Shown here: piece after piece, positions 22,927 to 29,350 of the stretch | How the letters are laid out: each line of letters begins with the position of its first letter | How positions within the stretch are numbered: the first letter of the stretch is position 1 | Assembly (NCBI RefSeq): GCF_017940815.1 | Contig: NZ_JAGAXX010000011.1 | Span: 1-34,562, forward strand | Direction: 5' to 3' | Length of the DNA stretch: 34,562 nucleotides | Source of the DNA: Methanobrevibacter sp. | Lineage (GTDB): Archaea > Methanobacteriota > Methanobacteria > Methanobacteriales > Methanobacteriaceae | Translations under genes and position numbers: made by a program | The notes under the pieces: generated by a model | What the model was told of the DNA's origin: nothing | What the model saw: only the letters and a program-made list of their open reading frames with translations | Databases searched by the model: none

Positions 22927-23409
22927 ATGTCCTTTGAATCTCAATTGAGCAATTTTTTAAAAGATTGTGAGAAATTAATTGTATTAGGTGTAGGTAATGA
23001 GCTTAAAAGTGATGATGGTGTAGGGCCATTCATTATTAATAAGTTAAAAGCAGAAAATATCGAAAATAAAAACTTATTATTCATTGATGCTCAGACAGTG
23101 CCTGAAAACTTCACAGGTAAGATAAGAAAAGAAAAACCTACTCATCTGATAATTGTTGATGCATGTCTAATGGATTCCGATCCAGGGGATATGCAGATTG
23201 TAAACAAGTATGAATTTGCTGACATTGGAATTTCAACCCATTCAATGTCTTTGTCTTTCTTTGTCAGATATCTGGAAAAAGACACAGACTTTAGAATAAT
23301 TTTTGTTGGAATCGAACCAAAAACAATGGATTTTGGAAATGCACCGACACCTAAGGTCCAAGAGGCCGCTGATAAATTTATAGAAACTTTAAAGGGAATA
23401 ATATTATGA
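22927..23409 (+). CDS. HycI-type hydrogenase maturation protease
   Basis: A 160-residue member of the HybD/HycI endopeptidase family: VLGVGNELKSDDGVGPFI at the N-terminus with the metal-binding Glu/Asp, FIDAQTVPENF, LIIVDACLMD and STHSMSLSFF. It removes the C-terminal tail of a [NiFe]-hydrogenase large subunit after nickel insertion. AGGTG at 22916-22920 serves as the ribosome binding site, so ATG 22927 is chosen over the GTG inside it. The target hydrogenase is not in the window. Its stop overlaps the ATP-grasp start by ATGA, which ties hydrogenase maturation to the downstream cell-wall cluster in one transcript. Confidence 0.88.
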   Translation: MSFESQLSNFLKDCEKLIVLGVGNELKSDDGVGPFIINKLKAENIENKNLLFIDAQTVPENFTGKIRKEKPTHLIIVDACLMDSDPGDMQIVNKYEFADIGISTHSMSLSFFVRYLEKDTDFRIIFVGIEPKTMDFGNAPTPKVQEAADKFIETLKGIIL

Positions 23410-24500
23410 AATTATTATTTATAGGTTCAAGATTATATGATGACATTGATTGGTATGTTAGAAGCAAAGGCATAGAAAGCGTTCTGACAGAATCCAATGA
23501 GAACGCTATCAATTTGGATTTGCCTGATCAGGTATTTATCGTTCCTCGAGGAATGGATGGTCCAAAACAGGTTGCATTGATGCAAAAGGTTGATGCGATT
23601 GTGCCCCTGATAGGTATTGATCCGCCATTGATAGATGTTGCCCGTATGAAGGAGGAAGTTGAAGAGGAATACGGAATACCTGTTATCGCTGCAGGGGTTC
23701 GTGCTGTTGAGTTAACTTCCAATAAAATCAAAACCAAGGCGTTTTATGATGAGATTGGTGTTGTCACTCCAAACTATCAAATACTGAACAGCCCTGAGGA
23801 ATTAACCTTGGATTTCCCTGTTGTTTTAAAGCAAGGCGAGGGACAAGGTGGAAAGGACATTAAGGTGGCTAAGTCAATTGAAGATGTTGAAGAGTACTTC
23901 ACCGAGTTTGACCAAGCGTTATGTGAAGAGTTCGTTGAAGGATCTGAAATCTCAATTGAAGTGTTAGGATTCAATGGCGAATATGTTGCATTGCCTCCAA
24001 TCTATAAGGGTGAGACAACAATTGAAGGAACTCATCCGTTGAACAAGGTCAAGACAGGTCCTTGTATGGTCAGTGGACTGGACAATAACCTGGTGCAGCA
24101 CACTGCTTATAAGGTGGCTAAAAATCTTGCATCCGATGGAATTTTTGAAATGGACTTCATGTATTCTGCCAAAAAAGACCAATTGTATGCAATTGAGGTC
24201 AATACCCGTCCGAACGGAACAAGATACTTGACAACTGCAACATGCGGAGTTAATTCATTATGTGAACTGGTTGACATGGCTATTGGCGAGTTCAGTTTAT
24301 CCAATATTTCAGATAAATTAAAATATTTTTACTCAACTGAAATACCTATTGGAAATTATGAGGGTCCTGCTCCAAACGAGCCTGTAAAATCATTTGAGGA
24401 TAATGATTTTGTTGTTCATGGTCCTGCAGGTTACCAAAGGGTCACAGCAAGAGCTGAATCAAAAGAAGAGCTTGAAAAATTAGTTGATAAATTAACTTAA
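23406..24500 (+). CDS. ATP-grasp (carB-like) ligase of the pseudomurein cluster
   Basis: A 364-residue ATP-grasp protein. An N-terminal pre-ATP-grasp domain is followed by the ATP-binding region (FPVVLKQGEGQGGKDIKV, CEEFVEGSEISIEV) and the metal-binding AIEVNTRPNGTR. It resembles single carbamoyl-phosphate-synthase-type units but lacks a second ATP-grasp domain and an ammonia-channel partner. ATP-grasp genes of this kind sit beside Mur ligase and MraY-like genes in pseudomurein-walled archaea. A role in forming an amide bond in the wall peptide or its nucleotide-linked precursor is therefore likely, by context. The ATG overlaps the protease stop. Confidence 0.82.
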   Translation: MKLLFIGSRLYDDIDWYVRSKGIESVLTESNENAINLDLPDQVFIVPRGMDGPKQVALMQKVDAIVPLIGIDPPLIDVARMKEEVEEEYGIPVIAAGVRAVELTSNKIKTKAFYDEIGVVTPNYQILNSPEELTLDFPVVLKQGEGQGGKDIKVAKSIEDVEEYFTEFDQALCEEFVEGSEISIEVLGFNGEYVALPPIYKGETTIEGTHPLNKVKTGPCMVSGLDNNLVQHTAYKVAKNLASDGIFEMDFMYSAKKDQLYAIEVNTRPNGTRYLTTATCGVNSLCELVDMAIGEFSLSNISDKLKYFYSTEIPIGNYEGPAPNEPVKSFEDNDFVVHGPAGYQRVTARAESKEELEKLVDKLT

Positions 24501-24577
24501 ATCTGTGTTATAAGTTATCATTATATACTATTATCAATAGATATTTTATTAGTTTAAAAGATTTATTGTGTGGTAGA

Positions 24578-25648
24578 ATGTATAATACAGATATGTTAAT
24601 TCTTTTTTTAATAACATTATGTGCATCCATATTCTTTACATGGTATGTTAAAAGGATATTGTTGCAGGCAAGGATTGCAGACAATCCTATAGTTAGTGAA
24701 CATAGACATAAAAGCGGTACTCCTACAATGGGAGGTATTGCATTTTTATTTACAATTTCTTTGATTATAGCATTATACTATCAAAACACTCCAATATTGA
24801 TAGTTTCATTCATAATGCTTGCTGGAGGAATCGTGGGTTTAGTCGACGATTTAATCGGTCTTAAAGTTAAAGAAGTTCAAAAAATTGTTGTAAACACTTC
24901 CAATGAGGTAATAACTCTTGGAAGATTGGATGTTGAACCTGGTGAAGAAGTTCGTGTAGCCACTCCAAAGGCAAAGGCTGAAGTTGATGACTTGCTTAAG
25001 GCAGGTAAAGTTGAAGTAATCGGAGAAGTTCCAATCAAGACCGAACCTGAAGAACTTGAAAAAATCATCTGTCAAATAGTATTGGGATTATTCTTGGGAT
25101 TAACCGGTGTAGTTACAACATTGGGCGGATTCACATTAGGAATATTGGCTATTCCTATTGTTATCATTGCAATTTTAGGTTGTATCAATTCAGTCAATCT
25201 TATAGATGGTATGGACGGTCTTGCGGCAGGTATCGTTGGAATTGCATCAATTGCATGTTGTGTTTACGGATACTTATTTGGTCCAGCTACAATTATGCCC
25301 CCATTCCTAATCCTATCAGGTTTATGTTTAGGATTCCTGGTGTTCAACAAGTACCCTGCATCCATTTTCATGGGTGACACAGGTTCATTTGTATTGGGTA
25401 CAGGTTATGCAGCTGCAGTTTTAGTATGTGATATTCCATACTTTGGTGTGCTTGCATTGGGAGTTCCAATTTTATCAGTTGTTGTAAGCTTATTGCATAG
25501 GGCAAATATCATTAAATTACCGGTAGAACCACTACATCACACATTAAATCATTACGGAATGTCAGAAATAAAAATCGTATTAACATATTGGGGGACTACT
25601 TTATTGTTATGTGTAGTTGGAATACTTGCTAAAATGTATGTATTCTAA
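24578..25648 (+). CDS. MraY-like glycosyltransferase family 4 with a soluble insert
   Basis: A 356-residue polyprenyl-phosphate phospho-sugar transferase. The family motifs are present: KSGTPTMGG (45-53), VDD (89-91), NSVNLIDGMDGLA (204-216) with the catalytic Asp set, FMGDTGSF (264-271) and PLHH (318-321). It should attach the sugar-phosphate precursor to a lipid carrier on the inner membrane face, the MraY-equivalent step of pseudomurein. Unlike bacterial MraY, residues about 100-163, between the VDD loop and the next helix, form a strand-rich soluble stretch (VITLGRLDVEPGEEVRV, KVEVIGEVPIKTEPEEL). ATG 24578 is preferred to the TTG four codons upstream. Confidence 0.88.
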   Translation: MYNTDMLILFLITLCASIFFTWYVKRILLQARIADNPIVSEHRHKSGTPTMGGIAFLFTISLIIALYYQNTPILIVSFIMLAGGIVGLVDDLIGLKVKEVQKIVVNTSNEVITLGRLDVEPGEEVRVATPKAKAEVDDLLKAGKVEVIGEVPIKTEPEELEKIICQIVLGLFLGLTGVVTTLGGFTLGILAIPIVIIAILGCINSVNLIDGMDGLAAGIVGIASIACCVYGYLFGPATIMPPFLILSGLCLGFLVFNKYPASIFMGDTGSFVLGTGYAAAVLVCDIPYFGVLALGVPILSVVVSLLHRANIIKLPVEPLHHTLNHYGMSEIKIVLTYWGTTLLLCVVGILAKMYVF

Positions 25649-25675
25649 TTTACTTTTTCTTTTTTTGGTGATACT

Positions 25676-27559
25676 ATGAATATAAAAGATTTGGCTAATG
25701 CTATCAATGGAAAACTTGTGGGTAATGATGATTTCTTTTCTATTGATGGATTTACAGGAAAAATTACATTTTTAAATGATGCTCACACAGGAGATATTGT
25801 TATAAGGGAGTCTATAGATCCTGCAGGTGTTGAAATTGCATTTGATAAGAATATTGCATGCCTTATCACACCGGATGCTAAAGAGGGCACTGTTGAGACT
25901 GCTGAACGTTTAAACTTTCCACTAATTATCATAGAGGATATCGAAACCGCAAAGGAATTCGTATCCAAACTTTCAGAGAAACAAAATTCAAAAGAGAAAA
26001 CTGGTTTGGTTCATAAGGTTGGAGACAAACTCATTCCTGGGGATGTTTCAATTGGTGGAATTGCAGACAAGATTACATTTTTAAATAGGGATGATGCCGA
26101 CGCTGAAAACACATATGTGGAAGAACTTGAAGACATTAATGATTTGGCAAAGGCTGTCGAAGGTAAACTTGTGGGAAATGATGAATTCTTCTCAATTGAT
26201 GGGTTTACAGGTAAGTTCACATTTTTAAATGACGCTCATACTGGTGATATCGTTATAAGGCATTGGATTAATGCAACCGGTGTTGAAATTGCATTTGATA
26301 AGAATATTGCATGCCTTATCACACAAACCCCTAAGGATGGAGCTATTGAACTTGCAGAAAGGCTCAACTTCCCGTTAATCATTACAGATAAGATTGAACT
26401 TGCAAACGCATATGCGCTTTCACACACTATCAAGAAATATTCTCCGGATTCAACTAATGTCGTAATTACCGGAACAAACGGAAAGTCAACAACTTCACAT
26501 TTAATTTATCATATATTGAATAATGCAGGTTATCATGTTTTGACAAATACAGACAGCGAATCAGAATTCAATACATTAATAGACCCGATGGTTTCCAAAT
26601 TGATCTCAGATGAAGTCGTTGCAAATGGAAAACTCGACTATTTGGTCATTGAGGTGTCTGAGGTTCAAGGCTGGTTGGACAAGCTGATGAAAAATCATGC
26701 CGCATTGATGAGTGAAGCTATCAAGCCAGAAGTTGGAGTCATAACAAATATAGCAATGGACCATATCGGACTTGTCAATTCAATTGAAGATGTGTTTGAT
26801 GAAATTAAAGCTGTTCCTAAAGCTATTGGTGGTGGAGTGACAGTTTTAAATCATGATGATGAGTTGGTCTTAAAGTTGGATGCTGAAAATCCATTCTACA
26901 CTTCAATGTCTCCATTAGCTGAGGAAAATTCCGTGTATTTCGATGGAGAGAATATAATATATGAAGGGAATTCAATTTTAACTGTTGATGAATTGCCATT
27001 CAAGGGCAGTCACTTCATACAGAATATTTTGTCTGCAGTGGGCGCTTGTATCTCATTAGGAATCGACATCAATGACATTGTTGATGGGGTCAAATCATAT
27101 AAGGCATTGAACAGACGTTTTGCTAAATTAAGTGATGATCCATTGATATATGATGACTTTGCCCATAATCCGGATGGAATCAAGGCAACCATCAGCGAAA
27201 CCTTAAAGTTACTCCCTCAAAACCAAAAATTGCACCTTGCATGTGCGATTAGGGGTTCAAGAGGAGTGGAAATTAATCAGTTAAATGTTGATGCTTTGGT
27301 AGAGTCAATGACAGATGACATAGTGTTGTATCTGTCTTCAAGCAATGATGTTGTGAATGATTTGAACTTTGTTGAAGATGATGAAAGGGAAGTATTTTTC
27401 AAAACCTTGGATGAAAACAATGTTGAGTATGTTCATTTTGATAATTTAAAGGACTGTTTAACTGAGGTTTGCAATAACGCTGAAGCTGATGATGTTATCT
27501 TATTGATTGGAGCTCAAGGGATGGACCCTGCTGAGTCACTTTTAAAAGAGATAAAATAA
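25676..27559 (+). CDS. Mur ligase family protein (pseudomurein peptide ligase) with duplicated N-terminal domain
   Basis: A 627-residue ligase. The central ATPase domain has GTNGKSTTSH (265-274), the middle motif EVSEVQGWLD and NIAMDH; the C-terminal domain has ALNRRFAKL (477-485) and DDFAHNPDG (493-501), matching the Mur 'AHNP' motif. It should ligate an amino acid to the nucleotide-linked peptide of pseudomurein. The N-terminal, substrate-binding domain occurs twice: residues 3-97 and 154-248 are closely similar (FSIDGFTGK, TFLNDAHTGDIVIR, GVEIAFDKNIACLIT in both), with a degenerate partial copy at about 116-145. One such domain is normal for the family, so the protein is about 150 residues longer than expected. 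GGTGAT precedes ATG 25676. Confidence 0.88.
   Translation: MNIKDLANAINGKLVGNDDFFSIDGFTGKITFLNDAHTGDIVIRESIDPAGVEIAFDKNIACLITPDAKEGTVETAERLNFPLIIIEDIETAKEFVSKLSEKQNSKEKTGLVHKVGDKLIPGDVSIGGIADKITFLNRDDADAENTYVEELEDINDLAKAVEGKLVGNDEFFSIDGFTGKFTFLNDAHTGDIVIRHWINATGVEIAFDKNIACLITQTPKDGAIELAERLNFPLIITDKIELANAYALSHTIKKYSPDSTNVVITGTNGKSTTSHLIYHILNNAGYHVLTNTDSESEFNTLIDPMVSKLISDEVVANGKLDYLVIEVSEVQGWLDKLMKNHAALMSEAIKPEVGVITNIAMDHIGLVNSIEDVFDEIKAVPKAIGGGVTVLNHDDELVLKLDAENPFYTSMSPLAEENSVYFDGENIIYEGNSILTVDELPFKGSHFIQNILSAVGACISLGIDINDIVDGVKSYKALNRRFAKLSDDPLIYDDFAHNPDGIKATISETLKLLPQNQKLHLACAIRGSRGVEINQLNVDALVESMTDDIVLYLSSSNDVVNDLNFVEDDEREVFFKTLDENNVEYVHFDNLKDCLTEVCNNAEADDVILLIGAQGMDPAESLLKEIK
25682..25966 (+). 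repeat. Internal repeat copy A in the Mur ligase gene
   Basis: Codes for residues 3-97, the first N-terminal domain. Offset to copy B is exactly 453 bases (151 codons). Bases 25826-25871 are identical to 26279-26324. Confidence 0.85.
26021..26110 (+). repeat. Degenerate partial repeat between copies A and B
   Basis: Codes for residues 116-145. GDKLIPGDVSIGGIADKITFLN lines up with the NGKLVGNDDFFSIDGFTGKITFLN stretch of copy A after a one-residue gap, keeping KL, S-I-x-G and KITFLN. It looks like the remnant of a further domain copy. Confidence 0.55.
26135..26419 (+). repeat. Internal repeat copy B in the Mur ligase gene
   Basis: Codes for residues 154-248, directly ahead of the ATPase domain, so it is the copy in the normal family position. 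Confidence 0.85.
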
Positions 27560-27641: not shown

Positions 27642-28088
27642 ATGTTTATAAAGACTAGGAGAGACACACTAATAATTTTATTATTGGCATTTATTTTAAT
27701 TGTCTGTGGTCGTTTAATCACATATGTTGCATTTGCATCCTCTGATGATATTAATGACGGTATTCCAATATCTGGGGTAATCATTAAAGGTAATGATGTT
27801 GTTCCGGTGGATACCATCAGATATAATGTAATGCAAGCAGGTTTTAGGGATGGTAGTGTAATATATGGGGATATTCTAAAAACCTCCAAAAGAGAGGTTT
27901 CGTTGCAGGACGCGATACAGACGGCGCAGGAATTTGCAACACGGTCAACTGTGCCAGGTACATCTGTTCAACCAATCACAGCTGCAGATGTTCAAGTAGA
28001 TAAAAATACGGGTGTTGTTACAGTTACTGTTATAGAGGACTTTTCATCTGTTGAAATAAAGAATAAAACAAGCGAGGCGAGTGGATGA
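27642..28088 (+). CDS. Membrane-anchored extracytoplasmic protein, POTRA-like, in the cell-wall cluster
   Basis: A 148-residue protein. One membrane helix at about 9-31 (TLIILLLAFILIVCG and on) follows a short basic N-terminus, so the rest should be outside. Residues 42-66 (ISGVIIKGNDVVPVDTIRYN ... GFRDG) have the strand - 'GN' - helix - G layout of a POTRA domain, and the closing GVVTVTVIED resembles the last POTRA strand. Bacterial FtsQ/DivIB has the same shape (one helix, outer POTRA) and sits beside mur genes. The likeness is my inference. GAGGA precedes ATG 27642; the stop overlaps the next start by ATGA. Confidence 0.6.
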   Translation: MFIKTRRDTLIILLLAFILIVCGRLITYVAFASSDDINDGIPISGVIIKGNDVVPVDTIRYNVMQAGFRDGSVIYGDILKTSKREVSLQDAIQTAQEFATRSTVPGTSVQPITAADVQVDKNTGVVTVTVIEDFSSVEIKNKTSEASG

Positions 28089-29350
28089 AGTTGAATAAAT
28101 TCCATGTTTCAATTGTTTTTTTAATCATATTCTTAATGACTATGAGTAGTGTTGCGGCTACCTGTAACATTATAGTTATTACCGATCCTAGTGGTAATGA
28201 CCCTAATGGTGCTGCTGCAGGGAGTATGTCTTTTGCAGAAAACATGTTCCAATCCACATTTTTAATGTCTAAGAACAATCATTTTGCGGTACTCTCCGGG
28301 GGTACAGGTAGTTCAGACACTAGGTTGGATTCCATTGTTGATGCAGTTGCAAATCTTGAAAACAATGCATCTGCTGCTTCTGCGGCATCCATAGCATCCC
28401 AATATAAGGGTGCTCGTCTTGTAGTCGGTGGTCCAAATATTGGTGCAGCTATTGGAGGATCATTTAACGCTTACGTTATCACTGTAGATGATGCAAGTAA
28501 TGATATTAAAGTTACTCCTTACAGTAGTGGGGTTGCTACTTTACAGCCTGGTCAAAAAGGAGCTATTATTCACTTGAGGAACACTGCAGGAAACCCATTA
28601 TATGGTACAGCTGACAATGTTAGAAAAGAAACCGCAATGAATATTGGAAAAATGATTAGGGATGGATATTCCGCTACAACTATTCTTTCAGAAGCGATGG
28701 GTGAAGTTGCTCACGATTCTGGTGAAAAATACGGTGGGGGTGGAGTGAACCTTATTTCAGGAATTTCCACTGACGACATGTTCATACCTAAAGACATGAA
28801 CCAAACAGGTTATCCGATGGACGAGGAGTATTCGAAGGTCTGTGATGAATGTGGTTGGGCTACAGGTTATCCTGCCGCTGAAGCTTATGACAGATGTCCG
28901 GTTTGCGGTTCAGAGTTAAGGATTGTATACGCTTATGAGGCATTAGGATCTGCCTTGACAGTCAGTTCAAATGCAGTTAGTGTATCCGTTTACGGTACAG
29001 ACAAACCTGGAGTTGCATCAACAACTCAAGAAATTGTTGAAGCATCTGTTGCAAAATATGGTTATGATGCATCAGCTATTGCAGGTTCAATTAACCGTGC
29101 TATTAACAATGGTCTATTGATGGGTGTTGACCACGTTGAACCTAAGGACCTTAACGTAAAACAAGGTTCCAAAGCTGTTGGTGTTTATTATAATGCACTT
29201 CCAGGTGACAGATCTGCTCCTGCATGGGATTTACCTATTGACGGAAACATCCTGAACATTTTAGGTAGTATCCAAACGGCTGTAGGTATAATTTTAATCC
29301 TATTGGTTGTATTCAGAAGTAGGTTATTGAAATCTTTCCAAAATAGGTGA
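28085..29350 (+). CDS. Secreted, membrane-anchored zinc-ribbon protein of the cell-wall cluster
   Basis: A 421-residue protein with an N-terminal signal helix (about 8-25, ending SSVAATC), a long extracytoplasmic region and a C-terminal membrane helix (about 394-411) followed by a basic tail. Residues 253-274 carry C253-x2-C256 and C271-x2-C274 (CDECGWATG, CPVCGSEL), a zinc ribbon, unusual outside the cell. A stretch at about 95-106 is Ala/Ser-rich, and GARLVVGGPNIGAAIGG suggests a Rossmann-like or repeat fold. I do not recognise the family. Co-translated with the POTRA-like protein and last in the pseudomurein unit, it may act in wall assembly. A hairpin overlaps its stop. Confidence 0.7.
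   Translation: MKLNKFHVSIVFLIIFLMTMSSVAATCNIIVITDPSGNDPNGAAAGSMSFAENMFQSTFLMSKNNHFAVLSGGTGSSDTRLDSIVDAVANLENNASAASAASIASQYKGARLVVGGPNIGAAIGGSFNAYVITVDDASNDIKVTPYSSGVATLQPGQKGAIIHLRNTAGNPLYGTADNVRKETAMNIGKMIRDGYSATTILSEAMGEVAHDSGEKYGGGGVNLISGISTDDMFIPKDMNQTGYPMDEEYSKVCDECGWATGYPAAEAYDRCPVCGSELRIVYAYEALGSALTVSSNAVSVSVYGTDKPGVASTTQEIVEASVAKYGYDASAIAGSINRAINNGLLMGVDHVEPKDLNVKQGSKAVGVYYNALPGDRSAPAWDLPIDGNILNILGSIQTAVGIILILLVVFRSRLLKSFQNR

Follow-up and report, generated by a model that had tools for sequence, protein, structure and literature searches.

A pMurE-type pseudomurein ligase with a duplicated N-terminal domain in Methanobrevibacter

A gene in the analysed window, a stretch of 34,562 bp from a Methanobrevibacter species (contig NZ_JAGAXX010000011.1, assembly GCF_017940815.1), was predicted to encode pMurE, the lysine-adding ligase of pseudomurein, with two N-terminal domains (N1 and N2). 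The protein is a new variant of an already known enzyme. The explanation favoured, with moderate confidence, is that an ordinary pMurE had its 5' end duplicated once; N2 with the central and C-terminal domains would be the ligase and N1 would be an accessory domain. Computation gave a duplication of single origin and, for N1, a predicted fold, purifying selection and a loss of conserved residues. N1 is inferred to act through protein contacts. The features of the gene and its neighbours are listed in Table 1.

Table 1. Predicted features of the pMurE gene and adjoining genes in the window.
Feature	Position (bp)	Strand	Evidence
pMurE gene, 627 aa: two N-domains, central and C-terminal domains	25676..27559	+	NF053648 equivalog, 808.8 bits
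N1, first N-domain copy, aa 1-100	25676..25975	+	Self-alignment, AF2 fold; presumed ligand-edge residues replaced
Linker, aa 101-151, remnant of truncated, decayed third N-domain copy	25976..26128	+	Repeat match; aa 106-147 predicted disordered
N2, second N-domain copy, aa 152-251, joined to central domain	26129..26428	+	Aligns with single-copy pMurE and solved structures
Central ATP-binding domain PF08245, P-loop GTNGKST at aa 266-272	26465..27046	+	79.4 bits; whole-genome search agrees on position
C-terminal amino-acid-binding domain PF02875	27113..27514	+	45.2 bits
GGTGAT, Shine-Dalgarno-like, immediately upstream of pMurE ATG	25667..25672	+	Upstream sequences
Pseudomurein ATP-grasp protein (Ddl_archaea)	23406..24500	+	NF053643, 566 bits
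Archaeal MraY-type transferase	24566..25648	+	NF053644, 559 bits
Mfer763 family protein of pseudomurein cluster	27642..28088	+	NF053641, 229 bits
Mfer764 family protein of pseudomurein cluster	28085..29350	+	NF053642, 691 bits

The product matched the NCBIfam pMurE profile over its full length at a score above the curated cut-off of 600 bits. The best stretch, aa 157-626, covered profile positions 1-464, and because it spans the whole profile N2 is the copy in the canonical position. One central (aa 264-457) and one C-terminal (aa 480-613) Mur ligase domain were predicted above cut-off by Pfam, and the P-loop was invariant in the family alignment. An earlier sequence-only reading had proposed a pMurE-type ligase with single, intact ATPase and C-terminal domains, and both points were confirmed. 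A fold search gave 6VR8 as the top match (E 7.7e-49), followed by 7UFP and 7TZI. The gene sits in the pseudomurein cluster, adjoined by Ddl_archaea, MraY_archaea, Mfer763 and Mfer764. The Shine-Dalgarno-like motif also precedes the genes of single-copy relatives, which argues that N1 is at the native start. No in-frame ATG was present between aa 1 and aa 305, and with ATG the only start considered, a separate short ligase made from an internal start was rejected. The MraY-like neighbour begins at TTG as listed; its profile match starts at residue 14, and translation may therefore begin further inside the ORF.

Protein self-alignment gave an ungapped pairing of aa 2-95 with aa 153-246 at a BLOSUM62 score of 349. 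N1 and N2 are 68% identical across the 100-residue domain. At the DNA level positions 25682-25958 and 26135-26411 showed an identity of 76% over 277 nt, and the tandem duplication reported by the sequence-only reading was thus real. That reading had overlooked a truncated, degenerate third N-domain copy within the 51-residue linker. A 41-nt member of the repeat family was found there (26046-26086), with a DNA local score of 47 compared to a maximum of 29 in 500 shuffles; the protein-level z was 6.9. A long linker (at least 40 residues) was present in seven two-domain species, and the linker was 8-12 residues in the other 11. The long linkers resembled the N-domain in six of the seven (z 3.6-8.4 against N1), although in two of these six the score against N1 was not above the highest of 500 shuffles. 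N-domain resemblance was no longer detectable by shuffle comparison in the seventh (L037).

Full-length pMurE was present above the cut-off in 63 of the 67 genomes of the genus, with two N-domains in 18 and one in 45. The two-domain form was found in none of the 67 genomes with a match from 16 other genera of the family. Searching 139 family genomes with the N-domain only returned the same 18 carriers, with no further case among the 16 other genera. Two genomes gave two matches for other reasons, namely a broken gene (G024) and matches on two separate contigs (G100). The 18 carriers were assembled separately and several two-domain genomes were about 99% complete. The named two-copy relatives belong to Methanobrevibacter and include M. 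thaueri isolate SIG17. Judged from these sequences a single N-domain is usual for pMurE but not defining, and the two-domain form departs from the usual, as the earlier reading had assumed. The possibility that all homologues have two N-domains was rejected on the same counts. Compensation for a missing ligase was also rejected, as regards pMurD2 rather than pMurC or pMurD1; pMurD2 was present in almost every genome of the genus, whether its pMurE had one N-domain or two.

All 18 N1 domains were monophyletic (support 100/96), and 17 of the 18 N2 domains formed another clade (98/83). The stem was longer for N1 (0.20) than for N2 (0.03). As all N1 copies fall in one clade the duplication occurred once, and several independent duplications were rejected. 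In a tree of the pMurE core and neighbouring genes 16 carriers and one non-carrier, L052, formed a single clade of 17 species. The other two carriers, L044 and L115, were placed among single-copy species. Their neighbour genes grouped with single-copy species (starred branches), as did their pMurE core, less firmly for L115, while their N1 and N2 grouped with the two-copy set. The duplication had been suggested as a lineage marker within the genus. This holds in so far as N1 arose once and most carriers share one clade, but two carriers lie outside the clade and one member is without N1.

That member is M. thaueri isolate SIG19, which has a single-domain gene within the two-domain clade. It showed the reverse pattern: its N-domain fell outside the near-relative group while core and neighbours grouped with the two-domain clade. 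These conflicting placements of N-domain and core point to recombination of the gene's 5' end. L044 and L115 apparently acquired the duplicated 5' end by recombination within the gene, and L052 seems to have lost N1 in the same way. Ancient presence followed by many losses is a less simple alternative. The single-domain pMurE of M. olleyae-type lineages (L078-L089, L094 and L095) has an N-terminal extension of about 19-20 aa that partly repeats the first N-domain helix (for example FLNELADSVSS / FSINQLADSIGG; z 3 to 6). Small 5'-end tandem duplications may therefore have occurred elsewhere too.

Residues are numbered by their N2 positions in the 627-aa protein. N2 retains H196, Q217, K239 and N244. 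Among functional copies from all sampled genera position 196 was His in 92 of 93 and position 239 was Lys or Arg in 89 of 94. N1 of the window protein has E45, D88 and K93 where functional copies have His, Lys and Asn. The replacements were found in all 18 N1 domains, with Glu or Asp at the equivalent of His196, Asp or Asn at that of Lys239 and Lys, Arg or Ser at that of Asn244. The Q217 position was mixed (P14 L2 H1 C1). In the N1 helix leading into the central domain the conserved Asn, Ala and Leu were lost, and the neighbours of Asn244 were largely gone. The fold residues L184, D191, R195, G202, A206, T216 and P233 were retained in N1 of all 18.

The AlphaFold model places H196, Q217 and K239 where three consecutive strands (192-198, 213-219 and 234-237) end on their C-terminal side, or just past that point. 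A sheet of this kind usually holds its ligand along this edge. H196 and K239 would be expected to contact the UDP part of the substrate, the presumed pocket being assigned from conservation and topology. N2, which keeps the family residues and runs directly into the central domain, is predicted to be the working copy. N1 is predicted to be without the central-domain interface. The precursor pocket had been proposed for checking in both copies; its presumed ligand-edge residues were kept in N2 and replaced in N1.

The mean pLDDT of the AF2 model was 84.3, with aa 106-147 below 50. Both N-domains were predicted to fold, as the earlier reading had proposed to check. The helices and strands of N1 follow the same order as in N2, with a pLDDT of about 75-94 except in one loop. 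N1 modelled alone superposed on the 6VR8 N-domain at 1.4 Å over 96 columns (TM 0.82 by query length). One-ratio codon models gave an omega of 0.067 for N1, 0.051 for N2 and 0.054 for the core, and N1 is under purifying selection of about the strength acting on the core. For the seven long-linker proteins N1 had an omega of 0.062 and a mean identity of 80%, compared to an omega of 0.19 and an identity of 38% for their linker (third copy), the linker alignment being short and gappy. The low omega of N1 alongside a decayed third copy in the same proteins argues that N1 is maintained and not merely young. Folding constraint alone could also lower the omega of N1.

As N1 has kept its shape and lost the probable substrate-holding residues, an accessory part is its most likely role. 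In the favoured explanation a single in-frame duplication of the 5' end of pMurE would have taken place in an ancestor belonging to the genus. The UDP-linked peptide would be held by N2, ATP by the central domain and lysine by the C-terminal domain. In N1 both the edge presumed to hold the nucleotide and the surface that docks to the central domain would be gone. N1 may pack against the ligase itself or against a partner, be it a different pMur ligase, MraY or a second copy of pMurE, and this packing would stabilise, localise or regulate the ligase. A regulatory or interaction role for N1 is compatible with the data. By analogy with other pMurE the two-domain enzyme should add lysine to UDP-linked Glu-Ala. 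Against this explanation, most members of the genus manage without N1, which indicates that it is inessential to the pathway. It is more tentatively suggested that a ligand-dead Mur-type substrate domain may now be a dedicated regulatory or docking domain, and that the module may move between species by intragenic recombination.

It is somewhat unlikely that N1 is a tolerated leftover of neutral duplication, its fold kept only to spare the enzyme the harm of a misfolded appendage, a case of constructive neutral evolution. The effect of folding on omega would fit this, as would the absence of N1 from L052, the single-domain majority in the genus and the decayed third copy, which indicates that tandem duplication does occur at this gene. 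However, recombination between the copies should delete N1 easily, yet 16 of the 17 species in the clade retain it, with an omega near that of the core. The third copy decayed in proteins in which N1 did not. The replacements were consistent over 18 species (an acidic residue at 196, an acidic one or Asn at 239), and the module seems to have spread to two other lineages.

That consistent change at the ligand edge of a retained fold could instead mean a changed ligand, in which case N1 would be an allosteric sensor or clamp that binds another nucleotide or a cationic or peptide ligand. Among the weak structural matches of N1 were DRTGG domains of a pyrophosphatase regulatory region (3l31 and 3l2b, E about 0.02), but these were not significant. 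No new conserved pocket was identified in N1 and its Q217 position is not uniform, and a changed ligand is considered quite unlikely. The sequence-only reading had suggested that a second substrate-side domain could widen specificity, bind a different precursor or act as a regulatory clamp. A second equivalent precursor site that widens specificity appears unlikely from the residues of N1. For both N-domains to bind the UDP-precursor, alternating at one catalytic core or widening specificity, is very improbable. The two are similar in sequence and share a fold, but near-universal residues of functional copies are replaced in every N1, and its helix toward the central domain has lost the conserved Asn, Ala and Leu. 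A false duplication has a negligible probability and was rejected; the source is a draft genome of 88 contigs, but the copies differ at 24% of bases, and 18 separate assemblies show the same order with the same copy-specific residues.

In support of the favoured accessory-domain explanation, N2 aligned over its full length with the solved pMurE that have one N-domain. pMurE and bacterial MurE/MurF have a common catalytic scheme. They share the three-domain layout, and pMurE structures resemble MurE in the fold search and in PMC12996149, although identity was about 16-18% in the fold search and the bacterial substrate is sugar-linked. The closest solved structures are pMurE with a single N-domain, namely 6VR8/7JT8, 7UFP (Methanothermus fervidus) and 7TZI (Methanothermobacter). 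The window protein has the family, cluster neighbours, conserved motifs and N2, central and C-terminal domains of known pMurE. It differs in having two N-domains, a third-copy remnant and 627 aa, whereas a single N-domain and a length of mostly 470-550 aa are seen in the solved and most other members. According to PMC12996149, M. fervidus pMurE adds lysine in vitro to UMP-Glu-Ala, a UMP analogue of the UDP precursor. pMurE corresponds to Mur-delta in Lupo et al. (PMC11915815). A Mur-alpha/Mur-beta fusion ligase is described there in some Methanobrevibacter and Methanothermobacter. Both it and the two-domain pMurE are pseudomurein ligases of the same archaeal order that have been rearranged at the domain level, but there two whole ligases are fused while here only the substrate-side domain is doubled. 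No description of a doubled pMurE N-domain was found in the accessible text of open-licence literature naming pMurE.

Over a quarter of the species of the genus with pMurE (18/63) carry a second domain of the substrate-holding type in a cell-wall ligase. Little is understood about how pseudomurein is assembled, and in efforts against the methane-producing archaea of the gut pMurE is a candidate target. Assays and inhibitor work on single-domain pMurE may not transfer to two-domain species. The 18 enzymes with two N-domains and the 45 with one, together with the apparent transfers and the one apparent loss, form a natural set within one genus in which the role of the added domain is directly testable.

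Three genomes of other genera (G082, G083 and G107) had pMurE frames of 585-621 aa with one N-domain. Their profile match was split near the C-terminal end, which suggests an insert in the C-terminal domain. One in-frame stop was present within the pMurE match of two genomes, TAG in G148 and TAA in G104.
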